The translations under genes and the position numbers were made by a program. Below are positions 729 through 50,312 of a stretch of DNA of 64,000 nucleotides, in pieces (within the stretch, counting starts at the first letter, position 1; every line of letters starts with the position of its first letter). The DNA comes from Dactylellina haptotyla. Its lineage: Eukaryota > Ascomycota > Orbiliomycetes > Orbiliales > Orbiliaceae. The DNA is taken from the NCBI GenBank assembly GCA_031310005.1, contig CM062384.1, forward strand, positions 372,001 to 436,000. The letters run 5' to 3'. Below the pieces are notes generated by a model. That model saw only the letters and a program-made list of their open reading frames with translations, ran no database searches and was not told the origin of the DNA.

Positions 729-3700
729 ATGGCGAACGCCGAAGACGCTTCCAAAAACACAATCAAGCTCGAGAATGTATGACGGCTGTTATGGATGTTA
801 TACTGGGTGGCCATTTGAGCTAACATCTTCTAATTCTTCCATAGACCGAGAAACGAGATAACCTTATCGAGATCGAAAAACGATACCAGAAAAAATGGCA
901 GGAGGACAAGATTTTCGAGATCAATGCCCCCACCCTCGCCGAAGACCCCACCACCGACCCGGAAGCTCTTCGATCGAAACACCCCAAGTTCTTCGGAACC
1001 ATGGCTTACCCTTACATGAACGGCGTCCTCCACGCCGGTCATTCCTTCACCCTTTCGAAGATTGAGTTCAGCGCAGGATTCGCAAGGATGGAGGGAAAGA
1101 AGGCCTTGTTCCCTCTCGGCTTCCACTGTACCGGCATGCCAATCAAGGCATCGTCAGATAAGATCGTTCGCGAAATGGAGAAGTTCGGCGAGGATTTCAG
1201 CGGCGCCGAAGCAGAACTCGCTGCAGACCAAGCTGAAGAAGCTCCGCCAGCGCCTGCCGCCCCAGCAAAAGGGAAGGAAGATGTCACAAAATTCACCGCC
1301 AAGAAGGGGAAAGCCGCGGCGAAGAAAGTCAACCTCAAGTACCAGTTCCAAATCATGGAGGCCATAGGGGTTCCAAAAGCGGAGATTCCAAAGTTTTCGG
1401 ATCCATACTACTGGTTGACATATTTCCCGCCATTGTGCAAGGAGCACTGCAACTCTTTTGGTGCTAGAATCGACTGGCGAAGGAGCTTCTTGACTACCGA
1501 TGCCAACCCATACTACGATGCCTTTGTCAGGTGGCAGATGAACCGCCTCAAAGAGTTGAAGAAGGTCAAATATGGCGAGAGGTATACCATCTACTCGCCG
1601 AAGGATGGACAGCCATGCATGGACCACGACAGAAGCGAGGGCGAAGCCTTGAACCCACAGGAATACACCGGCATCAAGCTCGAAGTCTTGGAATGGGGAC
1701 AGGATATCAAGGATGTGATCTCCGCTACAAAGGGTCTGGAAGGGTTGAAAATATACATGGTCGCCGCCACCCTTCGCCCGGAGACTATGTACGGCCAGAC
1801 ATGCTGCTTCGTCGGACCAAAGATCGATTACGGCATCTTCAAGGTAAACGACAAGGAGGCGTATCTTTGCACACCTCGTGCTGCTAGAAATATGGCCTTC
1901 CAGCGCATCTTCTCGGAGGACGGCAAGTTCCCACAACTCGCCAGCTTCCAAGGTAGCGCTTTAATCGGAACCCTCGTCAATGCGCCTCTCTCCGTCCACA
2001 AAAATGGTGTCAGAATCTTGCCCATGGAGACCGTTCTTGCAACAAAAGGTACTGGTGTTGTCACCTGCGTTCCATCCGACTCTCCGGATGACTACGCGAC
2101 CGTTACAGACCTCGCCAAGAAACCAGAATACTACAAGATCCAAAAAGAGTGGGCAGAGCTCGAAATCGTCCCGATCATCAAGACTCCAAGTTACGGTGAC
2201 ATGTCGGCGCCTTTCCTTATCAAGGAGCTCAAGATCAACTCCCCGAAGGACAAGGATGCTCTCGCAAAGGCGAAAGAATTGGCCTACAAGGAAGGTTTCT
2301 ACCAGGGAATTATGCTCATCGGTGATTACAAAGATATGGAAGTCCAGAAGGCCAAGCCATTGGTTCGCGAGAAGTTGATGGGCCAAGGTTTGGCTTTTGT
2401 TTACAACGAGCCTGAAGGCCGAGTCATCTCTCGTTCTGGAGACGAGTGTGTTGTCGCTCTTTTGGATCAGTGGTACCTCGACTACGGTGAGGAGCACTGG
2501 CGTAAACAGGTCGAAGACCATCTTGAAGGTAGTATGGAGACTTTCCAATCCGAAACTCTGAATGCTTTCAAGTCGGTTTTGGGCTGGTTGAACCAATGGG
2601 CATGCGCCAGAAGTTACGGTCTTGGTTCCCGCCTTCCATGGGACCCACAGTTCCTTGTTGAATCTCTCAGCGACAGTACTATCTACATGGCGTACTATAC
2701 TATCTGCCACTTCTTGCACTCCTCTCTCGATGGCAAGGAGCCTGGTATGTTCCCTATCAAGGTTGAGCAGATGACCGATGATGTCTGGGACTATGTTTTC
2801 ACTCGCCGAGAACTCACCGAAGATGTTCTTGCTTCCGGCATCTCGAAGGAGAACTTGGAGGCAATGAGACGTGAATTCGAGTACTTCTACCCACTTGACT
2901 TCCGTTGCTCCGGCAAGGACTTGATCCCCAATCACTTTACCTTCTTCTTGTACATTCACATTGCCTTGTTCCCACCGCAATACTGGCCACGAGCTGTCCG
3001 TGCGAACGGCCATCTCTTGCTCAATGGAAACAAGATGTCAAAGTCGACTGGTAACTTTTTGACCCTCGAGGAGACTGTTGCCAAATTCGGTGCTGATGCC
3101 AGCAGAATCGCTTTGGCCGATGCTGGCGACAGCATCGAGGATGCGAACTTTGAAGAGAGCACTGCCAACGCTGCCATTCTTAGAAGTCACACTTTGAAAG
3201 AATGGTGCGAGACTGTCATGCAGGAGATCAAGGAAGGTAAACTCAGAGAGGGCCCCAAGGATCAATGGTGGGATGTTGTCTTTGAGAATGAGATGAACGA
3301 TCTCATTGAGAAAACGAGAGCCGCCTACGCAGCGTACGTATCAAATCTCACACAGCTCATATTTTACGGGCCACGCTAACAAAAAGTTTTATAAACAGTA
3401 CACACTTCAAGGAAGCTCTCAAGATGGGATACTACGAATTCCAGTCCGCCCGTGATTCTTACCGTGAGGGTTGTTTGCAATCCGGTCTTGGTATGCACAA
3501 GGCCCTCGCCCGCCGCTGGATCGAAGTCCAAGCCTTGATGGTCACCCCGATCGCGCCTCATTGGGCCGATTATGTTTGGCAGGAAGTCCTCGAGAACAAG
3601 GGAACCATCCAGAATGAGTTGTTCCCAACCCCCAGCGCTCCCTTCGATAGTTCTCTCGGTGCAGCTTTGGACTACGTTCGAGCACTCAGCGGCAAGATCA

Positions 3701-4242
3701 CAAGCACAGAAGCGGCACAGTTGAAGAAGATGAGTAAGGGCAAGAAGGGTTTCTTCGACCCCAAGCAACCGAAGAAGGTTACCATCTTCGTGGCGAGGAA
3801 TTATCCAGCTTGGCAAGAATCTTATGTCGAGCTCGTAAGGAAGCACTTTGATGCGGTCAGCATTAGCATCAACGACAAGGGTCTTGCGGCGGATGTTCCA
3901 AAGGCAGAAATGAAGAAGGCCATGCCTTTCATTCAGATGTTGAAGCAGAAGCTCGTGGGCGCGAAGGAAGACCCAGAGTCAGTTTTGGATAGGAAGTTGA
4001 AATTTGACGAAGTTAAGACTTTGACTGCTGTTCTGCCAGCGATGAAGAAGACGACCGGAAGCGCGATCATGGTAGTTGTGGTTGTAGATGACGGTGGTAA
4101 GACAGGAAACCTCGTTGGAGAGACCGGAGAGTTGACACCGGTAGAGGGAGCTTTGCCGCCGGCAGCAGAGGCGGCCGTACCAGGAGCGCCGACATTCTCG
4201 TTTGAGAATGTAGCAGAAGAAAGCGCTGCTGGACCTGCATAA
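729..4242 (+). CDS. CDC60: cytosolic leucyl-tRNA synthetase (class I)
   Basis: Charges tRNA-Leu with leucine in the cytosol. I place three exons: 729-776, 845-3333 and 3399-4242, giving 1,126 residues, a normal length for fungal cytosolic LeuRS. The first ATG, in ACCATGG context, opens a 16-codon exon; both introns are short with GT..AG ends. The class I signature reads HAGH at residues 79-82 after PYMNG, and KMSKS lies at about 746-750. The CP1 editing insert carries the threonine-rich stretch TLRPETMYG near residue 325, and a later segment (GTGVVTCVPSDSPDD) has the conserved editing-site aspartate region. A lysine/alanine-rich insertion (about 135-180) interrupts the N-terminal Rossmann half, as in other eukaryotic cytosolic forms. 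No mitochondrial presequence is seen, so this is the cytosolic enzyme. A Gcn4-type site lies upstream. Confidence 0.97.
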
Positions 4243-5054
4243 AATTCTAGATGTATCTTTTCCTCTTTTTTCTTTATTTCGGTTTTGGCTTTTTTCATAA
4301 AAGATTCCCATGCATCGTTTGTCTATCTGAGTAGCTCGTAGTCTATCTATCCATCTATCATTATTACCGCTAGACCAATAAATCGAACACAGAATAATCT
4401 CAAGTAACCAAATCTCATCCCGGGTTAGAGCTATCCGCATCGGACCTACTGCAGATGCAATCCGCCAGACTGGGGAAGGTACCCAAAAGAGATCACCAGC
4501 CGGTATAACCCGGCTAGCTCGAGATCCAAGATACTTTCATTCTGCCATATACGGAATATAATGAGCACAATGATGTCGGTCAGGGAACTCTTCAAACGGA
4601 AAAAAGCTTATCGCTAAAAATTTGCGGGACCCTTGCACATCGAGTGCATGTGTCACTGTGACTGGACACCAGCGGTTCCGAGATGATAGTGGTCGAGATA
4701 GGCCGGGTTTTCGTAGTTTGATACCTTCTCGAATGATACAATGGATACGGATACGTATCGATAAACCCCCTCTTCCCTTCTCCTTTCATCTCATTTGTAC
4801 CCCGCAGATAGACTGAGCTTATTCGCTGCTTCGTGCTTTTTTCTTTCCCGCTTGGAAGCTTTTCCTGGTAGCTCGACTGTTGCATTCCGCCAGCTGCAAC
4901 ACATTCCGCATTTCCCAGAACGTCGATTTTGGACTAAAACATCCGCGTCGACCAACCTCTTTTCCCAACATCAAGCGTCTAGCTTATATTTTAGACTACT
5001 AGTTGTTTTTTCTCTCTCAGCTAATAATACTCGCTCTTAATATCATCTCGAACG
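4243..5054. other. intergenic region between leucyl-tRNA synthetase and HIS2
   Basis: Holds the 3' UTR of the synthetase and the promoter and 5' leader of the histidinol-phosphatase gene. The last 150 bases are pyrimidine-rich (TTTTCTTTCCC, TTTTTTCTCTCTC), as is common ahead of fungal starts. I found no perfect TGACTCA and no supported gene. Confidence 0.6.
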
Positions 5055-6107
5055 ATGCCTTTCTCTCACCATTCACACTCCGGCCAATTCTGCGCCCACG
5101 CAAAAGACACCCTGGAAGAATGCATCCTCACGGCCATCTCCAAGAACCTGCGGACCTTCTGCCTGACCGAGCACATGCCACGAAATGAACCTCGCGACCT
5201 CTACCCGGAAGAAATAGAAGCCTCCATCACCCCGGAAACCCTCCACGCCCGGTTCGCAGAATACTACAAAACCGCGCTGGAATTGCGCGAAAAGTATAAG
5301 AGCCAGATCACCCTGCTGATTGGATTCGAAGTGGACTGGATCCGCCCTTCCTCTCTGGAGGAAATCACCCGATTACGCGAGATGTACGACTTCGACATCT
5401 TTGTCGGGTCCGTACATCACGTCGATGAGATTCCTATAGATTTCTCGCGGGAGGTGTTCGAGCAGGCTATCACCACCGTCGAAGCACTGGATACTCGTGG
5501 TGACGGAGACGCGGTGTGTCACAATGGAGTTGAGATCTCGCGGTTCGATGAGATACAAGTCACGGAATCGAAGGGGGAACCGCGCCTGTTCGAGGCGTAT
5601 TTTGATACGCAGTATGCCATGCTCACGGCTTTACGACCACCCGTTATCGGGCACTTTGATCTTATCCGGTTGAAGGCTACAGACTACAGTGTTGATTTCA
5701 AGACCATGCCAAAGGTCTGGGAGAAGGTGGTCAGGAATGTCAAGTTTATCGTGGAGTACGGCGGCATGGTGGAGATTAATTCTGCGGCGGTGAGGAAGGG
5801 GTGGGAGTATCCGTACCCGGGACCTGATGTATTGCGGGTTATGGTGAAAAAAGGGGTTAAGCTTGTGATGAGCGATGATAGCCACGGGGTCGCACAGGTT
5901 GGGTTCGGGTATGCTAGGTGTTTGGAGTATCTGGCTGAACAGGGAGTTGAGGAGATCTGGTATTATGAGTGGAAGGGTAATGAGAGGCGGGTTCAAGACG
6001 GTGTTCTAAAAACAGCAGACGGGTTATCATTACCTAAAATTGGAGCTGCCAACGTTGAGGCTAAGAGTATCCGACTGGACGACTTGAAGGGAGTGGTGGT
6101 AGCTTAG
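5055..6107 (+). CDS. HIS2: histidinol-phosphatase, PHP family
   Basis: Removes phosphate from L-histidinol phosphate to give histidinol, the penultimate block of histidine biosynthesis, in the cytosol. The gene is a single uninterrupted frame of 350 residues, close to the length of yeast His2. The N-terminus shows the PHP metal-binding start (H5-H6-S-H8 followed by C-A-H), then TEHMPR, GFEVDW and SVHH, each matching a PHP metal-ligand block. Near the end SDDSHG supplies the final Asp/His ligands. It therefore belongs to the HIS2/HisK PHP class and not to the HAD class fused in bacterial HisB. It lies tail-to-head after the leucyl-tRNA synthetase with about 0.8 kb between them. Confidence 0.95.
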   Translation: MPFSHHSHSGQFCAHAKDTLEECILTAISKNLRTFCLTEHMPRNEPRDLYPEEIEASITPETLHARFAEYYKTALELREKYKSQITLLIGFEVDWIRPSSLEEITRLREMYDFDIFVGSVHHVDEIPIDFSREVFEQAITTVEALDTRGDGDAVCHNGVEISRFDEIQVTESKGEPRLFEAYFDTQYAMLTALRPPVIGHFDLIRLKATDYSVDFKTMPKVWEKVVRNVKFIVEYGGMVEINSAAVRKGWEYPYPGPDVLRVMVKKGVKLVMSDDSHGVAQVGFGYARCLEYLAEQGVEEIWYYEWKGNERRVQDGVLKTADGLSLPKIGAANVEAKSIRLDDLKGVVVA

Positions 6108-6561
6108 TAGCTTGTATTTCTAATTCTATAAAATCTATCGTGTCCTTATTCTCAAGACTGTTTTACATTTATAGAGCTATTATTCGTCGAACTTTTGATA
6201 CGCCGAGCTAGTCTCGAAGCCAGACGGGGCATTTTTGACGTCGAGCGACTTAAAAAAGTTGAAGCGGCACGGTGTCGGGGAGCGTTGGCAGCAAGATCGT
6301 CGTGATGTGTGGTCAATTAAGTAATTATTATTTATATTTAGTAAGATCAATAGAGCTTCATCGCGATCATCTCACACACGGTCGTTAAAATATTTATTTC
6401 GAGCTAGTTTATTCAACCCTTGCCAAGACTTACTTTGTATTTGAGTTTTTTTCCACACTGCAAGCAATAAAAATGCATGCTGACAACATCATCCAGCCTC
6501 AATAGTTTCACTGTATCTCGCCGTAAAAGATATAGTGTATATGCTTCAATCATCTGAAACA
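6108..6561. other. intergenic region between HIS2 and the APH-family gene
   Basis: AT-rich sequence with no supported coding region. It should hold the HIS2 3' UTR and the promoter of the next gene. Nothing else recognised. Confidence 0.5.
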
Positions 6562-7824
6562 ATGGAATGGCAGAGAGGTGTCTTCGGCACACAGCCTATC
6601 TGGAAGATCGAGCCGCCTATTGAAGCCGTCACAAATCTTATGCAGACAAAAATCAGTGGCACAAACATCGAAACAGCTGATAAAGATATACCGGAATATC
6701 TTGGCGGCGGCGCATTCAATAAGCTGTACTTAATGAATTCGTCAACTGGACAGTGGATTTTACGAGTTACCCTTCCAGTGGATCCTTTCTTTAAAACAGC
6801 TAGCGAGGTTGCTACCTTAAAATTTGTAGCTTCCTATACGTCGCTGCCCGTCCCTCCAGTGGCTGCATATTGGGATGGAACTGATAACGATTCATCGGCG
6901 GATAAGTCGCTCGGTCTAGAATGGATTTTAATGGGAAAACTCCCGGGAAAAACTCTATCAGATGCTTGGATGGACATAGCTCTCGACAAGAAGATTGAAA
7001 TTGTGGAGTCAATTGCTGACAAGCTGCACGAACTATATGCGTGCAAAGAAGCTCGGTTCTCAGCCCTGGGAAATATCTATGGAAAACAAGAGCTCCAGAA
7101 ATCGTCATTATTAGAGGCTCCATACTCAATTGGTCGGATTGTATCCATGGCGTTCTTCTGGAACCAACGGCTTCAACAGCCAGTTAATCGGGGCCCGTTC
7201 TCTTCCTCAGCAGAATGGCTAACGTCACGGCTTCAGCTTGTTGAGCAAGAATGCAATGATATACTAGAATCGGATCAAACTGATTCCGATGACAAAGAAG
7301 ATGCTGAAGATTTTAAATCGATTGCTCAGCGGCTAACCAGGCAAATGGAATTCTTTTGCCAACCTCTAGAAGAAAATATCTTTGTCCTTCATCACGACGA
7401 CCTAAATTCCCATAATATTCTCATAGATCCGGTTTCCGGGGCTTTAACTGGGATTCTTGACTGGGAATGTGTTTCCGCCTTACCTATCTGGAAGTCTTGC
7501 CAACTACCACATTTCCTCGCTAACGAATGGACTCGAGATGTAAAACCGATTCTTGGCGAATATCTGAGAGCAGATGGCTCGCTTAGCAATTTATATCCCG
7601 AGCATCTTAAAGAATGGGAAGTGACTGTTCTGGCTGAACGTTTTCTGAAGCGTATGGAAAGTAAGAACTCTGATTGGATAAACGTCTATCGATCTTCGGA
7701 ACGGATCCGGGACTTCGACTGTGCTATTAAGAACTGCGACAACCCCTTTATGACTGGAAAGATAGAAAAGTGGCTGGATGTATTAGAAAACAATGAGCCG
7801 TATAAAAGACTTTCAGAGCTCTAA
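6562..7824 (+). CDS. APH/choline-kinase-fold phosphotransferase (aminoglycoside phosphotransferase family)
   Basis: A single-exon protein of about 420 residues with the kinase-like APH fold, common in multigene families in moulds. The substrate is unknown; it should not be read as antibiotic resistance. The catalytic Brenner motif is H278-x-D280 to N285 (HHDDLNSHNILID) and the metal-binding Asp is D300 in GILDWE. An N-lobe strand GGGAFNKLY corresponds to the nucleotide-binding loop, and the family opening FGTQPIWKIEP is present. I prefer the ATG at 6562 (A at -3, G at +4) because MEWQRG.FG is where homologous proteins usually begin; in-frame ATGs at 6535 and 6541 would add up to nine residues. 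Acidic residues (SDDKEDAEDF) fill a linker near residue 238. Confidence 0.85.
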   Translation: MEWQRGVFGTQPIWKIEPPIEAVTNLMQTKISGTNIETADKDIPEYLGGGAFNKLYLMNSSTGQWILRVTLPVDPFFKTASEVATLKFVASYTSLPVPPVAAYWDGTDNDSSADKSLGLEWILMGKLPGKTLSDAWMDIALDKKIEIVESIADKLHELYACKEARFSALGNIYGKQELQKSSLLEAPYSIGRIVSMAFFWNQRLQQPVNRGPFSSSAEWLTSRLQLVEQECNDILESDQTDSDDKEDAEDFKSIAQRLTRQMEFFCQPLEENIFVLHHDDLNSHNILIDPVSGALTGILDWECVSALPIWKSCQLPHFLANEWTRDVKPILGEYLRADGSLSNLYPEHLKEWEVTVLAERFLKRMESKNSDWINVYRSSERIRDFDCAIKNCDNPFMTGKIEKWLDVLENNEPYKRLSEL

Positions 7825-8072: not shown

Positions 8073-11000
8073 TCACCAGGATAACTCAGGTGAAGAGTTT
8101 CTTCGGTCTTTCCGAGCCTGCTCCAATGCAGCCCAGCCAGATTTTTCGTAAATTTCAATATCAGCTGTGTCCCAATTGTATTGCTGGTAGAAAGACCGTT
8201 TTGCTTCGGGCGCATCCATAGCACCAGCTTTTAAGAGCACATCTAGTACCTGAAGAACGTAACCTCGTTGAGTCTCCGAGTGACACAAAGAAGAAGCCAC
8301 CAAAGCAGCTTGCGCCGCAGTGTTGTGATGACCGCCCTGTGCGTTCACATTGGCCCCGGCATCTAAAAGGGCCTGGAGCACTATGCGAGGATAGTACATA
8401 GACTTCGAAGCAGCTGCCTGAAGCGCGTTGCCGTAGTAGCCCCCTTGGGCGTTAATATCCGCACCGTTTTCCAGCAGCTTTTCGATAACGGCTTTTAACT
8501 CATCTGACGTATTATAACAGTCATCCCAGAAGTTAGAACTATTATGACTAGTATACGCAGCACTGAAGGCAGCTGCTTGTAGGGCATTTCCGAAATAGCC
8601 GCCTCGAGCGTTAACATCTGCACCAGACTCTAAAAGAAGTTGAATAGTATCCACAGGGAAATACCGGTCGTAAGCCGAAAAGAACTTGTCGCCTTCAGTA
8701 GCAGCCGCAGCTTGTAAGGCAGTCCCGTAATGACCACCAAAGGCATTGATATCGGCGCCGGCGTCAAGAAGCATTCGGATTATCTGATTATTTGGGAGAT
8801 CTTGTCCATAACCAAAGGCAGCAGCCGCTGCTTGTAGGGGATTTCCATAGTAGCCACATTCAGTGTTAGTCTCCGCACCCGCTTTTAACAACATCTCCAC
8901 CACTGCGGAGGTGACCCTAACTTCAAAATTGCCGTTGAACCGATGTACACTGGTAACAGCAGCTTGCAGCGCAGTACCCGATTGGCCCCCTTTAGCGTTG
9001 ACATCGGCGCCAGCATCAAGGAGAATTCGTATCATATTCTCGTTCTTTTTTCTTAGGGAACTACTTGCGGCGGCGGCGGCGTGGAGCGCGCTTGAAAAGT
9101 ATCCGGCCCGAGCATTCACGTCGACATCGAAATTTTTATTAGTGAGCAGAACTCGGGCGAGTTCTGCGCAATGGTTTAGGGATAAAACATAGATTAGGCT
9201 TGTGTCAGTACCGTATTTTGCATAGTCACCGACGCCAGTGTCGTGTAATCGCTTCAATCGCTGAAAAAGTAAAGGTTTGCCTTGGAGTTTTTGTAGGAAT
9301 TCGTGCTGGTGGACACCTCGAGCTTGCGCTCGTTCAGCATGGTAAAACAAGTTGCGATTTACATATTCAAGGAAAGGATGTCTATCCCAAGAGAGTTGTT
9401 GGGATTCAGGGTGACTGTTGTCAAACCCTTCTGTCTCAAGATATGCCAGACAACAAGCCGCCAGCCTGCTATGACTGGAGCCTATGACATCGGAAGCTAG
9501 ACTTGGATCAAGCATCTTAAGTCTATTATTCCTGAGGAGGAAATCCGTAATTGTCTTATGAATAAATCGTACGTGAGTCCCGCCTTTACTTTCAACACAT
9601 GCAATTAAGCCTCTCCCCGTGCTGATAATAAACTTTTCAATATCTTCGGGGATAGCTGAGAAATCTTGATTTGATAGGGCCTCGGGGTCCGTTCCAGCTA
9701 GTACGGCTTCGTATATTTGGTCATGGTATAAAAAGGATTGGTTGAACAAAATCCATTGTATCATTAATACTGTTTGTTCTTGGTATGGATTATCTTTTTC
9801 TAAAATCGTTCGGAAAACTTCGTCGAGGTCGCTCGGGATTTGGTTTAGCTTTCTTCTTGCGGCCTCAAGCCTCCCGTCGTTATATGCATCATTGAGCATA
9901 CGCGTCACAAGTATAACCCACATAAAGACGCCATCGGCCTTTTCGAGAAGCTCTGTTTTGATGCTACCTTCTTTAACTCTGAGATTTCCCTGAATATATT
10001 TTTCTATAGCCAGGTTATGTTCGGTTCGATTTTCCAAGACTAGTTCGGCCACTTTTCGTATGCTATATCTTGGGTAATGACGGCTCGATTGACAAATATT
10101 GAGAACAACGCCAGAGGCAACCGCGGCAACGCTCAGTTTCTCAAGAAATGATATAGCTTCCTTTACGTCGTCGTCATTACATTCGTCCAGGGCGTCAATA
10201 AATAAAATCGTCGGTTTCACTTTGAGCCGGAAGGTCTCGAGCAAGAACCTTTGGAGCTCTCCTGGGTGCCACGCCCATTGTTTTGATGGCCCATGTTTTT
10301 TATTCTTGTCCAGGAACATCGGGATAAAGCGATCGAACTGTTGCTGGTCTTGGTCTAGAATTTGATAGACAAGCGACCGAAGCATACCCAAGAAAGACCT
10401 TTGAAGAGGCACACCACGAGCATTGAAAAAATAACTCCCGATAATATAATCTGGGAATAATTCCTTAGCCCGGAGGAATATATACTTCACAAGAGTAGAT
10501 TTTCCGGCGCCTGGTTTGCCTTTGATCCAGAGAATACCATTTGAGTTTGCAATATTCTCTCGATTTTTCCACTGCTCAAATTGTATAGTCTCAAAAATCC
10601 AGTTGCAGGTATTCTGGTGACTTTCGCGAATATCGTTTAGCCTATCGTCTATTTCCTCGAAGCTGAGGGACTGAAGGCAGGCAAACTTGGTCTCAGGTTG
10701 ATAAAGGTCTAAACACATTGCGACGAAGTATTAGCAGTCTAGAATCAAATGTGGAACCTCCAAAGCTTACTTGTGCGTATCTTTTGGCATGGGGGTATTG
10801 AGGAGATTAATTCTTTGGCATATGCTGCTGCCGTTGCCGCTGCATAGCCCTGCCAATCTTTGGCCTTGTGAGAATCCGAGTAGTCGCAGATACCTCGAAT
10901 CACTAGGCATGGAAAGTTATCCATAATACCGGCCGCTTCCATCTCGAAGCAACAGACGTCGAGCTCCTTGGTAATCTGATCCCTGACCTTCGCATCTTTG

Positions 11001-11792
11001 ATCACCTGATTGCCTGATGCTATCAAGCCGTAGTGAATAACTGGACCTCCCTCCACTCGGTTAGGTCGGGGGTACCATCATTGCCACATCGCAACTTTGA
11101 CAATTTCCAGACCAGTTCACATGTTCATACTCGGCTTTAAATAAGATATCTTCCTCTACTCCTGGATTCCGGAATTGGGCTCTCTTCTCCCTAAATTTAG
11201 AGCACGCTTCAGCAATAAAATCCAATATTCGGTTTGGCTCAAGTAGATGTTTTGATTGCAGTTTAGATATAGCGGTCAAGAGCTCCATAGGTGGTTTATC
11301 GAGGACACCGATCCGTTGAAATGTGCCTCCAGCAATAGTTTTACCGTAATCGTATTGCACGACTCCAGGGGAATTTCCGGTGGGCTTGCTAACCACAACA
11401 TCGCCTAACCGTATATCAACGGTCTGGCTGGGAGCGCCTCCACCAACTCCCACCATTAGACAATATTTTAAGGAGGGGAAACTTGACCGCATCAGAGAGC
11501 AAACAACTGCGGCGCTGTTAGTCCCATATCGACCCGAAGCGAGACAAGTGATAACGATATTGTGGGAATTGATGGCTCCTAAGATATACGCATTACGGTC
11601 TTCTGGGTGTTTCGGAAGGTCGGGGTGCACGAAATCCAGCATGGACCTAGCTGCCGCCATCTCAATTGGAAGAGCACATATCCAACCGATCGTGTAATCA
11701 TCGAGCGAGACAGGTCTCGCAGGTGCCGCCTTATCGCCGCGATCCCATGTCTCATCTTTGCTTTCTCGACGTCTCTTTGACATATTTAGCAA
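8073..11792 (-). CDS. NLR-type STAND protein: PNP_UDP, NACHT and ankyrin repeats (one frame break)
   Basis: A fungal NOD-like receptor. The N-terminal effector domain has the purine-nucleoside-phosphorylase fold ([54 protein letters not shown]). An intron at 10709-10770, with a TGCTAATAC branch site and phase matching on both sides, joins it to the NACHT part. There the entry motif ([13 protein letters not shown]) precedes Walker [10 protein letters not shown] at about 10494-10520 and Walker B FIDALDE. The C-terminus has seven ankyrin-like units, most containing N-A-x-G-G-x-x-G-x-A-L-Q-A-A. Within the PNP domain the frame changes at a run of five cytosines (11068-11072, minus-strand sense): upstream reading stops at 11061, while the rest continues in the next frame from [10 protein letters not shown]. 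Such proteins are known in fungal non-self recognition; the role here is inferred. Start could also be the second ATG at 11783. Confidence 0.85.
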
Positions 11793-41361: not shown

Positions 41362-43103
41362 ATGAAGTTATCCTCGTCCCTGGGTGTTCTGCTACCCATA
41401 ATCCCATCTACGCTCGCATTACCTAATAGTTCGTTCGAAAGTCGATGCGCTAGCCTTGAAGATGCTTTTAAGCATTCGAATACAGAGGTCCTGGTTGCAG
41501 CATATGTACCCGCTGGCACAAATCTAACCTTCCCAGGATCCGTTCACGATCGCAACTGCCCCCAATATGTTGTCTCTCGGGCAGACGTATGCCGCTTGAG
41601 ACTTAATGTCACCACGAGCAATACCTCTCGCGTTGTCGTCGAGGTGTTTATGCCGGTGGATTGGAGTTCTAAAGGGAAGAGGTCATTGATGGTTGGAAAT
41701 GGCGGCATGGGAGGATGTAAGTACCAGATGAACAGTTAACTTTTTGAAAAATATTAGATTGTGAAATCGTTCCTAACTTAACGCAGGTATTCACTATGAG
41801 GACATGGTATTCGCCAATAGCCTAGGATTTGCTGCCATCGGTCATGATAACGGCCATCCCGGGGATACTGGCAAATATTTTCTTAACCGCCCTGAAGTTA
41901 TAAAGGATTATGTCTGGAGAGCGTGAGTTATAAATCCACTCCCAGTTGGTAGTGAAATATTGGCTGAGAATGAAACGCAGACTTCGGGAAGCTGGGATTG
42001 CTGGAAAGGCAGCAATCAATAGTTTCTACGGGGAACTAGTCCAAAAGTCCTACTATATGGGCTGTTCAAGCGGTGGCCGCCAAGGTCTTAAGGCCGCCCA
42101 AGAGTTTCCAGGAGAATACGACGGCATCGTCTCCGCTGCACCTGCTATAAATTTCTTGGGAATACTTGCATACTACGCCAAAATATTCAAGACAACTGGT
42201 ACCTCTGGAGCTCCAACGTTTTTGAATAAAGACCAATGGGCCCGCGTTCTTCGTATGACTTTGGACCAATGCGACGGAATCGACGGAGTTATCGACGGAG
42301 TTTTAGAAGACCCGATGAAGTGCCATCCTCGTCCGGAAGCACTTCTTTGTGCTCCTGGCCAATCATGGGAATTCGACAAATGTCTAACCGCCGCTCAAGT
42401 GCAAACGGTCCGTACTATCTACGAACCAGTATACGGTAAAAATGGAAAGTTCATCTTTCCGCGACTAAACCCTCTAACAGATGAGACCTTCGGATTGAGA
42501 CTCATATACGGTGGTAAGGTTGTTTACCTCTCCGAAGAGTGGTATCAGTACGCAGTATACAGCGATCCCAGCTGGACTACCGCGAACAACTGGACCCTCA
42601 ATTCCATCGATTATAGTTTTTCAAAGGAACCCTTCGACGCATCTACTTTTAAAACTGACCTGACGCAAATGAAGAACAATGGGACTAAGTTGATCATGTA
42701 CCACGGTTTACACGATTCGTTCATTTCGTCCGAAAACTCGTATAACTATTATAATGCAGTTTCCAGAACTATGGAGCTGCCTTCCGAAAAGCTTGACGAC
42801 TTCTACCGCTTCTTCCCGATCCCTGGGCTCGAACATTGCTATTCAGGAGCCGGTTCTTGGAATATCGGTGGCTCGAGCCAGAATACGCCTGCTAGTGCGT
42901 CCGTAATCGATCCATCGGATAGTGTGTTGATGAAGATGGTTGACTGGGTCGAGAAAGGCATTGCGCCAGAGGTTCTAACTGGCCGCAACCTTGTCAATGG
43001 TGCCGTCGTGGCTGAGAAGAATCACTGTAAATACCCATCTCAAAATACTTATAAGGGAGTTGGCAACCCGAGCTTAGCTTCTAGTTGGGAATGCAAGCCA
43101 TAA
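41362..43103 (+). CDS. secreted tannase/feruloyl-esterase family enzyme
   Basis: Serine esterase that cleaves gallate or hydroxycinnamate esters in plant material. Exons 41362-41716, 41787-41922 and 41981-43103 give 537 residues. The start at 41362 opens a signal peptide (about residues 1-19). The family's CS-D-HC arrangement is complete: Cys192-Ser193 in MGCSSGGRQG, Asp409 in GLHDSF and His449-Cys450 in LEHCYSG, where the two Cys form the disulfide that brings Ser and His together. A calcium-site-like segment DQCDGIDGVIDG lies around residue 255. Full length for the family and no defects seen. Tannase and feruloyl esterase cannot be separated by motif alone. It lies 0.55 kb from the tRNA-Gln, on the opposite strand. 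Confidence 0.93.
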
Positions 43104-44043: not shown

Positions 44044-46853
44044 TTATATGGAGTTATTACGACCAGTATTGTTATGAGTTCGGAAGATCTCAAAAAAATC
44101 TTCATCTTCAACAATAGGATCGTTGCCACTTAGGTTTGTGGTTGCGGTACCGCGCCTTCCATGAGCCTCGGTGCCATGGTGCTCGAGAGGATTCTTCGGT
44201 CTTCCGAGACTATTTAGTTGGAGAGGTTCATCTGCACTCTCATGAAACCCGAAAGGATCTGGTGTTGACAGTTGTCTTGGCCGTGGAACTGTTCCTGGTA
44301 AAGAAGATCTCGCCGAATCCGACACAGCCTGCTTCGGATAGGTTTCTTTAAAATGGACTTGATAATTCTTACCCGAATTGTTATCCCAGGCTTCCCAATA
44401 ATCAACAAAATATCTAATGCAGAACTCAAGGGTTCGGCTGTCTAAGGGCAACATATCCGATAGTTTGATGCGGAACTTCCATTCATCATATTCAAAACCA
44501 TCACTTCTGGTAACTTTTTGAGAATATAGGGCTACAATTTCCGAAATCGTTTTCCAGTCATCTAGGGTGAATTGGACCGCGACTTTTCGTGGGGCAAGGT
44601 GGAGTTCCACAATGATGCTACCTTCCAAGGAGTCCTTCTTCTCGGACAACTTGATTTCCCGAATGCGGACCTCCCAGCCTGACTCGCGACTGTAATCCCG
44701 TTCGGGGATATCGACCGAGGTGATTTCTAGGGAGCGCGGAGTATCTAGGCTTGACAGGGGGTATTCCTCATCTGATTCAAATTCAAATTCTGGCGAGTCA
44801 GCATTTCTAGACGGCATATTCGGTTTATCCCATGGGCGATAATATCGAACATGCAGGCCACCATCAAAATTTACGGCCTTGGCGTGGGAACGAGGTCTTG
44901 GGGAAATGCCGTCGGTACTTGGACCTTTTAATGAAGGTTTGAAAAGCGTATTTTTATCACGCCACTCATTCTCGTCTATTAGAACCCTTTCATCAGGTAA
45001 AATGTCGTCAAATGATAAAGAGCTATCAAGTTCGAAATAATGGTCGCCGGAGCGTTCCTGGTTTGAAACTTCTTCGCCCAAAGCCCCTCCTTCGCTTTGG
45101 GTGGAATGCGAATCGTCGTCAAAGTACCGTAATGATACGAAAGCGAGTGATTTCAAATGGCCGGCGATGTGGGTTGCTAATTTGATATGGTAGACGGTGT
45201 CCAGATTCTCCTCGGGCACGGAATTGATTTTGGTTTGGACGTCTCCATCGGTCGTAGCGACAGGATTTTCTTCTTCATCTTCTTCGTCGTCATCATTAGC
45301 GACCTGAAATTTGGGCTTTTTTGTTACTCCTTCTTGCAAATTCGGGGAGAGTGTATCCGCCGCGCTTGCCTCGTCAAGAGCCGAAATATCAAGGCTACAC
45401 AAAGGACATATGGTAGACTCCCTGGAGATCGACAAAACGTTCCGTCTCACTATCGTATCCGTCTTTTCCACAGTATATGCACCCCGGTGCTTTTTGAGCA
45501 AATGCGTCCGAAGTGCTTGGGCATCTTGAAATTCCTCATAATCGTGTTGGTCCGAGTCACAGTACCAAATAGCCAACTTGTGGATATCTTGTGTCCAGTT
45601 TATGGTGTGCGCTTCATCCATATGTTTGCGCCAGCTCCGCAAGGACACAAAGTACCTGAGTTCATCGGCGCATTCCTCTGATATGCAGACGTATGGCTCG
45701 AGATCTTCTTTAAAATGTGACCTCCACTTGAGCGTCCACTCGGTTTCTTCCTCCAGAAATTCAAGTTCTTTAGAACACCACTCACACTGAACATGCTTCG
45801 CGCCATGCTTGGGCTTAGGAGCTCGCGGGTAAGGGTTGCCGTGGGCAATGGATGTCGCGCTTGGCGGACCGGGGACGGCCTCCTCGGCGGCGGTCTCATT
45901 ATGGTATCGTCGAAAATTCTGAACGTCGAGCGCCGATGGATGTGTCACCGTTGAGACACCGATCGTACGCGAATCAGATTGGAGGACGTTGGAGAATTGT
46001 CGAACTCGCAAAACGTCTGACGGTGCAAACGCGGACCTTGTTTCGATCGCGATCTCATGGTTCCGCGTCGGCTCCAATTCCACAGGCCGTTCCCGCGCCG
46101 GGCGAGGGCGTCGGCGCGTTTTCAATTTCTTCTGATGTTTCTGCTGATATAAAAGCCTGCGCCTTCGGAAGGTAACCGATTGAACCAGCTGGTCTAGGAA
46201 TGGGTCACTGATATTAGGATACAGTCCTTTCAGAACCAACGGGACGACCCGCTCAAAAAAGACGTAGTCATCGTCAGTCTTCGAGGCCTTTTGCGCGAAT
46301 GCATTGACCCTGGAAGCGAGGTCGGATGTAGAAGCCTTTCTGATAGCGATTCCGAGGCGATGCAGTCTGTCCAAGGAACCACTGACGCCATCTAGAGCGG
46401 CCTGTGTAGTCTTCGAAATATCTGCGACCAGCTCAATTTTGTCTGGCCGTTCCTCCACATTCGTGTCCTCCAGTTTCAATTGAGTGTCCTGAGAAATCTC
46501 GAAATTTAAGGCTAGAAATTTGGCTGTGAGTCGGTTGCATTGCATATACTTTGGAGAACAAACTCCGACTCACCATGTTGAAGATTCCGCTTCAGCGTCC
46601 CAAGCAATTGAACGACCAGATCGCGGATATCAGGAGCATTCCTCAAGCGGCTGTCGAGAGAGGTCTGCCAGGCGGCAAAAACGCCTAAGAACCCGGCCCA
46701 CCGGTCGAAACGCTGCTGGTGTTCGAGGACAACCCTGTGCTCTTTGTCGCTCACTCCAGAAAGCACCAACAGCAACTCTTCGAAAAGATGCTCGCAGTCC
46801 TCCGCGAGATCATAGATTCGCTGGTCGGCTTCGCCGCTGGTTGCCGTCGCCAT
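44044..46853 (-). CDS. AcuF-type C2H2 zinc-finger protein fused to PP1-docking motif and CBM21 domain
   Basis: Two exons, 46853-46574 and 46523-44044, give 919 residues (an alternative acceptor 12 nt downstream also keeps frame). Residues 1-120 match the helical N-terminus common in fungal NLR-associated proteins (RFDRWAGFLGVFA..SLDSRLRNA). Residues about 330-560 hold AcuF-type C2H2-like fingers: CEWC, CISEEC...RKHMDEAH, WYCDSD...LRTHLLKKH and CPLC...HIAGHL. After an acidic linker comes K-A-V-N-F at about 642-646, fitting the PP1-docking RVxF motif, followed by the DEEYPL spacer seen in Gac1-like phosphatase regulators. Residues about 708-819 are a CBM21 domain: FTLDDWKT, an FRIKL strand, EFCIRY and WDNNSGKNY. 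The exon is uninterrupted from fingers to CBM21, so the fusion is in the DNA. I infer a regulator targeting PP1 to glycogen-like glucan; the role of the N-terminal half is unknown. Confidence 0.8.
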
Positions 46854-47138
46854 GACCCGTTCATGATGTTCAGTTCGAAAACGTTCAAGCGCCAGAGAGC
46901 TCGCGCGCCTACCCCACCTGCGCTCATGTGGTGTTGCATGTTGCCCAGATTGCGTTCGCCGTTTGAACTTATGCACGCCAGGTTGATGTCCAGGGCGAAA
47001 GTGGGCCCCGAACCTAGTTATTCATTCAGCCTGACATCAGCCACACGAGGAAGCCGGCGTTTTAACAGACATCGCGGGGGGACGATGGAGCCCAACATCG
47101 TTATCACCGACAGCAGTGTAGGCTGAAAATCTTTCGAT
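46854..47138. promoter_or_regulatory. shared bidirectional promoter of the zinc-finger/CBM21 and DUF7580-PNP genes
   Basis: About 285 bp separate the two proposed start codons, which point away from each other. Both promoters must overlap here unless the plus-strand gene has an unseen upstream exon. No TATA box recognised. Confidence 0.45.
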
Positions 47139-50100
47139 ATGCCTTACAGGCCTCCTGTGCATACTGAATCCGCTAGACTGAGCCGTCATACCGACGTTGA
47201 AACTATCGGAGAGGTTCCATTTCCTTCGATTCTCCCACTCTCGAGACAACCAACGGCTGTCAACGTTTGTCACAACGGTCCTAATGTTGCGTGTCAGCTG
47301 GCGGGCAAAGGAGCCCATCTGCATGGCGGGGCGACACATACTTTAGACGACGAACTCCCGGAATGGCAGCTGTTCGAAGCCGTTCAACCGCTCTTCGCAT
47401 CCAATCTGCAGTGGGAGCTGCAGCGACACAATAGAGGACGGGTCGGTGTCGACGCGGAAACGATAGGGTCGGAGAATTTTCTCGATTTCTTCAAATATGA
47501 GATGAAGAGATTACCGGAAAATGCGCCAGGCAAGAAATTGTCTTGCGAAGTTTATGGTAACTGCATTGAAACTCTCACAGACTTGCTGGACCTCCTAGAG
47601 CGTCTTGTGCGAGAACATATTCTCCATGACCCAGAGCTAGGAGAGTCGGAAGAAATAGAAGGAAATGTGAGTTGAATTTCCATACAATTCCTGTAGCTAC
47701 TAGTGTTATTACCGACTACTCTGATTTTGATTGGACAAATTGAGCTTATAAAATGAGTCTCAAGCTCAAGAACGCCAACCTACCAGACCCACAACTGAAA
47801 GAACGATTGGTTGTTTCAGCTTCAATGTTCACAAGTATATATTCATGGCTCGGGGTCGAGTTCGCGGCGCCTCTGCAATCTCCACCGGAGCCACTTTTTG
47901 ATAATAGTTCCTCAAATTCCAAAGCTCAAGATAACCCCGCACCAGAAGAAAATAAAGACCACCCGAAACTGCGGGCACTGGGGAAAGCCGTGTCCATCGC
48001 GCTCGAGGATGGCACGGATCTCGGACGAGCCTGCAGCGCCTACTTGCGGCTGGATCATAGCACCGAGGAATTTGCGGACGCCGTGGATGTGCTGAGCTCA
48101 TTCAATACCTGCCTGGAGTCACCTGATGTCTCCGGTGGCGCTAAGCCGCACGATTTAACTTATGCTTTGGAAATCTCTAGAACTCGTTGGGAGGATGTTG
48201 GACCTTCGAATTTTTCGAGTCTGCTCTTTAACATACTACAGAAAAAAATTAGTGGATGTCAAGCTAGTCAGAGCGAAAAGCATCAAGCGATGCTCCGACT
48301 GAACGGGTTTCAATTGGAAGATAATCCGTTGGCTTTTGACATGTTTTTCCACCCTTGCAGGCGATCAAATTATTGGCAGGAAAGCCGATTCACGCCAAAG
48401 GGGAAGTAAGTTATTCCGTAGACAGCTGCTCTCTTGCCGTTTGCTAACGTCACCCACACAAAGGAACCTCCAAAATTTTGCGCGGCCGGAATTTGTTCAT
48501 AACCTGTGCGGTTATATCGATAGGTTTCCTGAAGAATCAAATCCGGTCGTACTCAGCATCGCCTTTGATAAGACAAAACTCCTCGCGACTACCGCGGACC
48601 TCTTAGCAAATGCGGGTGCGTTACCCGAGAAATCTCTCGAGGATCTTCTCGGACGCGGATTCTTTCGTAAACCGACAGCCGGCGGGGCTTTCAGTCCTGG
48701 AGATAAAGCGGTTTTGACCCTCTCACTCGCTCGCTGTCTTCTTCATTTCTTCCAAGGACCTTGGATGGAGCGCCCATGGAGCGCGGAATCCGTCCGTTTT
48801 CTTCAGAGGAATACGTCGACCGAGATATTGGATATACACCACCCGTACGTCCGATACGTCTTACCCAATGACTTCGGAACGACGGTGGAGCCAAAGTTCT
48901 CCAAATTTCAGAGAGTAATGCTGTCCTTTGGCCGGTTACTTTTAGAAATCGAGACTGGAGAGAATATTGCCCTAGATTCATCCTTAGAGTCGGACCCGGA
49001 CGACGTGAAAACCACTCTAATGGACGTACTGGACCGTCAAGAGGAGCCGAGGGGACCTTATCATCTAGCGGTAGAGGGATGTCTCAAATTCAAAGCGTCA
49101 CTGGCGTCCATCCAGAAACGCGAACCAAAGCTGGAACTCGACCACCAGATCAGAAAGGTTATATATACCAGCGTGATCAAGCACCTAGAGCAGAACCTCT
49201 CCTGTTTTCGAAATCACAAAAAGCTTCTAGCTCGGCGGAACCTCCAAGTCGCCGACCGATCAATCAAAACCGTGCCAGAAGTAGAGATCAAGGCTAGCTT
49301 TCCAACTCAATCGCAGAGAGAAATCATACAAGAAATCCCTAAAAGTATAGACACTGCCAACACACTAAAATACACTATAGGATGGGTTTGCGCGATTGCA
49401 ATCGAACTTGCGGCGGTGAAAGCCATACTTGACGAAGAATACGAGCCCCTTCCTATGAGTTCTTCAGAGACAAATATCTATACCTTTGGGCGAATGGGAA
49501 AACACAATATAGTAATCGCGTGTCTACCATCCGGTAAGTATGGAACGGTATCAGCCGCGACGGTGGCATCCGAGATGCGATGGCATTTTCCAGATTTGAG
49601 GTTTTATTTAATGGTGGGGATCGGCGGCGGAGTGCCCAGCGAAACGAACGACATCCGCCTCGGTGACGTTGTGGTCAGTTTACCGACGGGTACCTCCGGT
49701 GGTGTGATTCAATACGAATTCGGCAAGACGGTATCAGAAGGCAAATTCCAGCACACGGGCAATTTGAACGCCCCGCCCACGTTACTGCTTAATTCTTTAA
49801 CTCACTTGCGAGCTATAAACACCAAAAAATTGGGGGCGGCGCTGGAAGAAGAGATATCCCGCGTTTGCGAGACGGATGATAGATTCAACCGGCCAAGACA
49901 GGATGAGGACCGTCTGTTCAGCGCTAGTTATGAACACCCAAGTCATGAAAAATCATGCGAGAGATGCGATACAAGCAAATTGGTTGTTCGCAAGCCGAGA
50001 GGGAACGAGTACCCGTATGTTCATTATGGTATTATTGCGTCCGGCGATAAAGTCATGAAACACGCTGCAACGAGGGATAAAATTGGGAAAGAGATGGGTG

Positions 50101-50312
50101 CTATATGTTTTGAGATGGAAGCAGCTGGGTTGATACACAGTCTGCCGTGTTTGGTTGTGCGGGGGATATGTGACTATTCGGACAGCCATAAAAGCAAGGA
50201 GTGGCAGCCGTATGCGACAGTGACGGCAGCGGCGTTTGCGAAGAAGTTGCTCGAATATGTGCCCCATTTGGATGGATTACATCGACATCAGCATGTCCAT
50301 AGCTATGGATAG
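47139..50312 (+). CDS. DUF7580-like helical protein with C-terminal PNP_UDP domain
   Basis: Exons 47139-47666, 47765-48405 and 48464-50312 give about 1,005 residues. The second intron (GTAAGT..TTGCTAACG..AAAG) is clear. The first has a good GTGAGT donor but its acceptor (after ATGAGTCTCAAG) and the start codon are uncertain. Residues up to about 640 resemble the DUF7580 family of fungal proteins: an N-terminal helical part, LVLSIAFDKTKLLATTADLL, LARCLLHFFQGPWM, PYVRYVLP and FGRLLLEIETGE, a worn protein-kinase-like fold. From residue 693 a complete PNP fold follows: [67 protein letters not shown]. This is the same domain that serves as effector in PNP-NACHT NLRs, but here no NACHT or repeats follow. 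Likely in non-self recognition or cell-death control (inference). Confidence 0.75.

Follow-up and report, generated by a model that had tools for sequence, protein, structure and literature searches.

What does the tail of a glycogen-targeting phosphatase regulator do on an immune-type zinc-finger protein? The question is raised by a gene on the minus strand of a 64,000-nucleotide stretch of Dactylellina haptotyla DNA (the window), which joins a helical N-terminus and AcuF-type C2H2 fingers to an RVxF-type docking motif for protein phosphatase 1 (PP1) and a CBM21 domain. The gene stands head to head with a DUF7580 gene, and such pairs recur in this genome with pieces of other host genes in place of the tail. 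We favour, with slightly better than even confidence, the explanation that these are immune-type systems of two genes: the finger protein would display exchangeable baits copied from hub proteins of the host (integrated decoys), and the partner would carry out the response. The analysis is based on one genome; two further fusions are known as proteins alone.

The fusion gene and its domains

A search with the whole protein gave 19 relatives. Two of them have the full fusion architecture over 92% of the query: P0003 from Orbilia ellipsospora (73% identity) and P0004 from O. oligospora (50%). None of the others is labelled with CBM21, and their coverage of the query is 26-71%. The parts of the fusion gene are as follows.

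46853-44044, minus strand: fusion gene, two exons and one 62-nt intron, 915 residues in frame
46574..46853, minus strand: exon 1 (residues 1-93, start of the helical N-terminus), with in-frame ATG and donor GTGAGT at 46573, conserved with P0003 and P0004
46512..46573, minus strand: 62-nt intron, GTGAGT...TAG; the spliced frame agrees with the homologues over the junction
44044..46511, minus strand: exon 2 (remaining helical N-terminus, fingers, linker, RVxF, CBM21 and tail), continuous frame
46105..46853, minus strand: helical N-terminal module (residues 1-229), helices modelled in P0003; module common to NOD-like receptor (NLR)-type proteins
45157..45786, minus strand: AcuF-type C2H2 finger cluster (residues 336-545) with invariant Cys/His and a long insert in the last finger
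44866..44880, minus strand: RVxF-type PP1 motif KAVNF (residues 638-642), sole match of the RVxF pattern used
44755..44772, minus strand: DEEYPL spacer, counterpart of Gac1 DSEYPF by alignment with the Gac1 of the same genome
44356..44673, minus strand: CBM21 domain (residues 707-812), PF03370
44587..44604, minus strand: degenerated primary sugar-binding loop LHLAPR (NISFQK in Gac1), ungapped alignment
44362..44388, minus strand: kept WDNNSGKNY motif, described in the available part of PMC4482762 as the substrate-binding motif, or sugar site I, of PPP1R3 proteins

CBM_21 is the sole significant Pfam family over the 915 residues (E 8.8e-25, 87.6 bits against a cut-off of 28.9); one C2H2 model (E 3.2) falls far under its cut-off. 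The AcuF label of the fingers comes from homology to P0021, an acuF-like protein with precomputed PF26082 (match E 2.5e-8). Across 30 aligned module-bearing proteins, 12 columns are invariant, including C336, C339, H395, H430, H435, C462, C465, H541 and H545 (P0003 numbering).

A sequence-only reading of this stretch had placed the CBM21 domain at about 44347-44682 and the KAVNF motif at 44866-44880. The significant profile match confirms the former, and the latter was recovered at the same coordinates. The same reading had assumed one uninterrupted exon. This is correct for the fingers, RVxF motif and CBM21, which all lie in exon 2, while residues 1-93 are encoded by exon 1. The frame between fingers and CBM21 contains no stop. 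An artefact of assembly or gene model is ruled out, as the fusion point lies within one exon and P0003 and P0004 carry the same fusion.

The earlier reading named no described fungal protein with this combined architecture. Here it was seen in just two further proteins, both from Orbilia, among the 19 relatives, 24 proteins from a second search and the 120 rows listed out of 199 matches. The lack of further fusions among these 120 is weak evidence, because the tail-bearing P0004 is not listed there either.

Origin of the tail

CBM21 occurs at three places in the genome searched (39.8 Mb in 11 contigs): the fusion gene, the Gac1 gene (L011, with KVVHF as its RVxF motif) and a gene resembling a glucoamylase (L012, recognised by eye in its frames). 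The tail aligns with the genome's own Gac1 at 35% identity over 298 columns (residues 227-499 of the Gac1 frame), and the similarity spans from before the RVxF motif to beyond CBM21.

In a chassis tree of 29 rows, the three CBM21 fusions form one clade (support 100/100). They do so again in a CBM21 tree of 37 rows, which took in 30 of the 119 listed Gac1-type proteins (95/89), and there the clade adjoins the own Gac1 (92/90). Quick trees with P0004 alone, or with the other two fusions alone, gave the own Gac1 as the nearest Gac1 row by path. Judged by alignment and trees, the RVxF-CBM21 tail is derived from Gac1. The combination had earlier been recognised as the layout of Gac1/PP1R3 regulators; that holds, and the module is Gac1-derived as well.

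Residues kept and lost in the tail

The tails were compared with 120 Gac1-type sequences, consisting of 119 of the 120 listed among 199 matches (P0003 excluded) and the own Gac1. At 76 columns, conservation in this set is at least 95%; the fusions retain 45, 50 and 35 of them, including RVxF, Trp and Asn residues.

RVxF motif: K-x-V-x-F is present in all three fusions (KAVNF, KAVHF and KKVHF) and in 120/120 Gac1-type sequences. In an AlphaFold2 model of the window segment, this stretch is disordered (predicted local distance difference test, pLDDT, about 48-54).

CBM21 fold: The same model is confident for CBM21, with block pLDDT of 86-94. Its best structural matches in the PDB are the PTG-PP1 complex 7qm2 and the PTG CBM21 entries 7qf7/7qfa.

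Sugar site I and other kept residues: The site I residues W193, W246, N248 and N253 are kept in all three fusions, and so are C235, D247 and N249. R187 is lost in the window protein alone among them.

Sugar site II: According to the available part of PMC9582199, PTG binds sugar mainly via N177, F180, E181, K182, Y203 and D214. In the Gac1-type sequences, the N, K and D of this site are invariant (120/120), and the F position is F or Y. The equivalent residues are L, A, P, R, Y and D in the window protein and I, A, P, H, Y and D in P0003. In P0004 they are D, F, P, T, P and Y, of which the last two depend on a gapped stretch. N and K are thus lost in all three fusions, and position 181 is P in all three, against Q, H, S, T, N or R in 119/120 Gac1-type sequences. 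The sugar loop itself aligns without gaps.

These residues bear on the suggestion of the sequence-only reading that an immune scaffold here carries a PP1 regulator which senses glucan or targets glycogen. The suggestion can draw on the presence of CBM21 and RVxF and on the kept site I residues W193, W246, N248 and N253. Glucan sensing is nevertheless unlikely because the primary glycogen-binding loop is broken in all three fusions, and sensing through this site was rejected on the residue comparison. As a whole, we consider this suggestion extremely improbable.

The chassis and its relatives

The N-terminal part of the protein matches P0005-P0008 (Orbilia javanica, O. ellipsospora, Arthrobotrys musiformis and O. 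oligospora) with 41-50% identity over 62-66% of the query. An NLR-associated N-terminus had been predicted earlier, and the likeness to these four NLR-type proteins bears the prediction out. The chassis is joined to NACHT-ankyrin in P0005 and P0007 and to NACHT-caspase in P0008 (partly precomputed Pfam labels). In P0006 it is joined to NB-ARC-TPR, plus a PNP-like stretch seen by eye. It also occurs with a kinase (P0014), a RhoGEF (P0015) and an FHA-kinase (P0016). The second search added HET (P0025), HET-kinase (P0023) and further NACHT and NB-ARC proteins. The NACHT plus caspase of P0008 and the HET plus kinase of P0023 on this chassis are unusual immune-type architectures in their own right.

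The Pfam scan of the 915-residue protein found neither NACHT nor NB-ARC, and the fusion protein is ruled out as an NLR on this ground. Four of the nine chassis proteins scanned (P0010, P0027, P0030 and P0036) gave no Pfam family, and no match to PDB sequences was found for P0036 and P0027. In the model of P0003, which is confident for the fingers and much of the helical part, helices are predicted at 7-229. Block pLDDT is mostly above 80; weaker blocks lie at 101-130 (62, 53 and 73), 151-160 (69) and 221-230 (75). The 50 Foldseek matches listed for this model are of CBM21 type, amylases and other beta-rich entries; none of them assigns the N-terminal fold.

The head-to-head partner and pairing across the genome

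The partner of the fusion gene lies upstream in divergent orientation.

46854..47138: stretch of 285 bp between the divergent ATG codons; the partner ATG at 47139 is the start of its open reading frame and the putative gene start
47139..50312, plus strand: head-to-head partner gene with Pfam DUF7580 and PNP_UDP_1, putative exon model
about 48203-48400 and 48474-49202, plus strand: DUF7580 in the partner (Pfam)
about 49377-50204, plus strand: PNP_UDP_1 in the partner (Pfam), with weak PDB matches to methylthioadenosine/S-adenosylhomocysteine nucleosidases (best E 2.4e-5)

In the partner frames scanned, Pfam found no NACHT or NB-ARC. The exon models of the partner and of several sister genes are incomplete. 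No paper on DUF7580 was found in the literature searched, which leaves out most subscription journals.

At least ten places in the genome carry DUF7580; of the 11 matches, two fall in exons of the partner in the window. Nine of these ten places have a finger-core gene next to them in divergent orientation: C6 (window), C10:2389k, C10:1113k, C3, C4, C2, C10:569k, C8 and C1. The profile-matched stretches within a pair are 1.0-3.6 kb apart. Between the flanking open frames there are 233-1502 bp, if these frames belong to the genes, as several have no profile match of their own. The tenth place, L021 (C6:3084775), holds a frame for a protein kinase, residues 542-720 of which weakly match DUF7580; no finger match was found in the 9.5 kb analysed there.

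The reverse check, with chassis pieces against the genome, returned the same nine finger loci and L041 (C6:3216498). In L041, positions 4111-7731 (minus strand) hold a 1207-residue open frame for a C2H2 protein, which has the finger core without the helical N-terminus. It is unpaired, with the nearest listed DUF7580 match about 130 kb away, and may resemble the source of the chassis fingers. Among the nine paired finger genes, the helical N-terminus was found by profile in seven, weakly at C8.

Captured pieces in the sister finger genes

In five of the nine finger genes, part of another gene from the same genome is present; four of these five belong to sister pairs. The open frames of the five source genes were compared with the nine finger loci by tblastn, and each source matched one locus.

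C6 (window): The captured piece is from Gac1, as described above.

C3: Fingers and Not1 DUF3819 lie in one open frame, with 60% identity over 234 residues to the own Not1. All four PDB matches of the piece are CNOT1/Not1 chains. DUF3819 is presumably the CNOT9-binding domain.

C10:569k: Fingers and a Sin3 PAH domain share one frame, with 43% identity over 68 residues to the own Sin3. The best PDB matches are SIN3 chains.

C2: Fingers are joined to a Tup1 pre-propeller region and WD40 repeats via an inferred 107-nt intron (GTAAGG...GCTAAC...TAG). Identity to the own-genome gene, which we take from its sequence to be Tup1, is 57% over 115 residues and 45% over 197 residues.

C1: The fingers are followed in the same frame by a domain of L039 (34% over 70 residues). 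A Zn2Cys6-like motif is also present, under the Pfam cut-off (E 0.0064). L039 encodes an unnamed protein at 2812-4617 (minus strand) with the captured C-terminal domain FDFS..FLVYY. The same domain ends P0003 (48% over 95 residues); hence, captured pieces seem to move between chassis genes.

C8: The serine-rich end (residues 230-288), outside the fingers, resembles the C-terminus of C8:2030822, which is predicted to be a membrane protein (55%, E 5.4e-5). That protein, L042 2320-3522 (minus strand), has a serine-rich C-terminal end. The piece is a possible sixth capture at most, because the region is of low complexity and composition-adjusted BLASTP did not recover the match.

Of the five genes from which pieces were captured, three have roles in gene regulation. 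A C2H2 family of transcription or RNA regulators fused to co-repressor or deadenylase parts (Tup1, Sin3 and Not1) would account for this, with the Gac1 tail and the pairing as side products, and the same finger core in L041, a related C2H2 protein, would agree with it. Gac1 does not fit such a scheme, however. The chassis also occurs with NACHT, NB-ARC, HET and caspase domains, and nine finger genes are paired with DUF7580 genes. We therefore regard this explanation as improbable.

Three of the captured pieces (Not1 DUF3819, Sin3 PAH and WD40) are discrete interaction domains, which suits a working adaptor. The Gac1 tail would then bring PP1, perhaps with glycogen synthase or phosphorylase, to the chassis, and the scaffold or its partner would be regulated by dephosphorylation; the sister proteins would dock CCR4-Not, Sin3 and Tup1 as true subunits. 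The RVxF core and the WDNN motif, retained in all three fusions, and the modelled CBM21 fold argue for it. Yet the primary glycogen-binding residues are lost, the spacer and tail diverge fast, and several unrelated hub pieces on one chassis are easier to explain by an exchange of baits. An adaptor is a contender, but we think it unlikely.

Uneven evolution

The window protein and P0003 are 82% identical over the helical part, 85% over the finger part and 89% near the last finger. Agreement is lower further on: the RVxF spacer stands at 50%, CBM21 at 65% and the tail at 32%. The CBM21 cores of the two are 63.7% identical, which equals the median for the own Gac1 against the 119 listed Gac1-type proteins (63.7%, range 54.9-75.8). 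From this equality and the contrast between regions, it follows that change in the captured part outpaces that in the structured chassis. As far as the sets can be compared, the captured part also appears to change faster than its source gene.

Accelerated change of the tail, the lost sugar site and C-terminal tails that differ among the three fusion proteins would also be expected of neutral or decaying chimeras in a fast-shuffling family, whose captured pieces have no selected function. Against this, the fusion persists in three proteins with open frames, the Gac1-conserved columns named above are retained, and the pairing recurs nine times. Chimeras without function are thus very improbable.

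A proposed pair with exchangeable baits

A constant chassis, exchangeable hub pieces, a constant partner and a faster captured part together led us to class the pair as working like an integrated-decoy pair. In the mechanism we propose, the helical zinc-finger chassis, common to NLR-type and HET-domain proteins, would be the constant signalling part. The Gac1-derived tail would be an exchangeable bait: its fold, PP1-docking motif and substrate motif are retained, but it is without the primary glycogen site and evolves fast. An outside agent that attacks the PP1-Gac1 hub, such as a mycovirus, an effector of a bacterium or competitor or a non-self partner, would make contact with the bait. In response, the chassis would set free or recruit the DUF7580-PNP partner, and the nucleosidase-type domain of this partner may execute a stress or death response. 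In the sister pairs, Not1, Sin3, Tup1, another host piece or an ankyrin or NACHT-ankyrin part would take the bait position.

Several points weigh against this explanation. The fusion protein lacks a nucleotide-binding domain. PNP_UDP_1 passes the cut-off in five of the nine partners and was not found near the other four. The helical N-terminus was not found by profile at C10:569k and C1. Stops occur within matches: the chassis matches at C10:2389k and C3 hold one apiece, and the DUF7580 match at C10:2387k holds two. These stops probably mark introns, with broken copies as the alternative.

As to the baits, two finger genes end in ankyrin repeats or lie before them (ankyrin at C10:2389k, NACHT and ankyrin frames downstream at C10:1113k). 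The C4 finger gene, which has a weak extra finger, is without a recognisable captured piece, and the piece at C8 is doubtful. A PDB search with the WD40 frame of C2 ranks Tup1 (1erj) 19th; the assignment to Tup1 was made because of the own-genome comparison, not the PDB ranking.

As to the tail, long branches weaken the CBM21 tree (4.65 for P0004, 10 in the quick tree). Two of the six site II residues (Tyr and Asp) persist in the window protein. Conserved loop columns are lost in all three fusions at 2/2 positions compared with 4/32 elsewhere in the core (Fisher p = 0.027), a modest excess for a site that was chosen post hoc, after the paper on PTG. Chassis linkers that look unstructured (76% and 72% identity) and the finger insert (63%) change at about the pace of CBM21, and relaxed constraint could account for the speed at which the tail changes. 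Finally, the immune function, the effector and ligand, triggering, expression, the activity of the partner and the death phenotype of the pair are predictions.

If the explanation is right, the sensor-plus-helper design of integrated decoys arose outside plants, without a nucleotide-binding domain in the bait carrier. Fungi would then own a class of non-NLR receptor pairs, in which an AcuF-type chassis collects hub baits opposite a divergent DUF7580-PNP executor, convergent with plant decoys; we put this forward tentatively, at a little under even confidence. Fungal immunity is poorly understood, both in what attacks fungi inside their cells and in how it is noticed. The captured pieces would be a readable list of the hubs attacked by the enemies of these fungi, and the baits name testable targets: PP1-Gac1, CCR4-Not, Sin3 and Tup1.

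Other genes in the window

On the minus strand at 8073-10718, about 33 kb from the pair, there is an open reading frame that is NACHT-like with ankyrin repeats by eye, and a frame that is PNP-like by eye adjoins it at 11061-11792 (minus strand). A gene of the tannase/feruloyl esterase family (PF07519) lies at 41946-43103 (plus strand), downstream of the finger gene.

Comparison with known systems

The pair is neither an NLR nor a Gac1 orthologue. How it relates to known systems is set out below; for the published systems, the comparison covers the available parts of the papers cited.

Plant paired NLRs: The hallmarks of decoy pairs given in PMC9528088 are head-to-head order, an intergenic stretch that ranges from hundreds to thousands of bases, and a domain resembling a host protein that is integrated into one of the two partners. 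The window pair resembles RGA4/RGA5, RRS1/RPS4 and Pik-1/Pik-2 (PMC9528088) in its head-to-head order, its short shared intergenic region and the exchangeable host-derived domains borne by one partner. It differs in being fungal and in that no nucleotide-binding domain was found in the window finger gene or the DUF7580-PNP gene.

Sordariales and Podospora NLRs: Putative integrated decoys, for example a PRD-4-like kinase, have been proposed in NLRs of Sordariales (PMC12258605), and a zinc finger in a Podospora NLR has been remarked upon (PMC5658179). These are likewise fungal immune-type proteins with host-like non-canonical domains. As described there, they are single NLRs with mostly C-terminal additions, whereas here a non-NLR chassis stands in divergent pairs with DUF7580.

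het-S/nwd2 and gasdermin/protease clusters: These share with our pair the arrangement of two clustered genes, a sensor and an executor (PMC10197012). No HeLo or gasdermin domain was found in the window pair, in which the DUF7580-PNP protein would execute.

AcuF-like C2H2 proteins: P0021 is alike in its finger cluster and N-terminus. It differs in having 588 residues with PF26082 as the only precomputed family, without CBM21 or another added domain.

Gac1/PPP1R3 subunits of PP1: The tail shares the RVxF motif, the spacer and a CBM21 with WDNN (PMC9582199, PMC4482762), in line with its Gac1 descent. In the fusion, the chassis replaces the Gac1 N-terminus and the primary glycogen site is broken.

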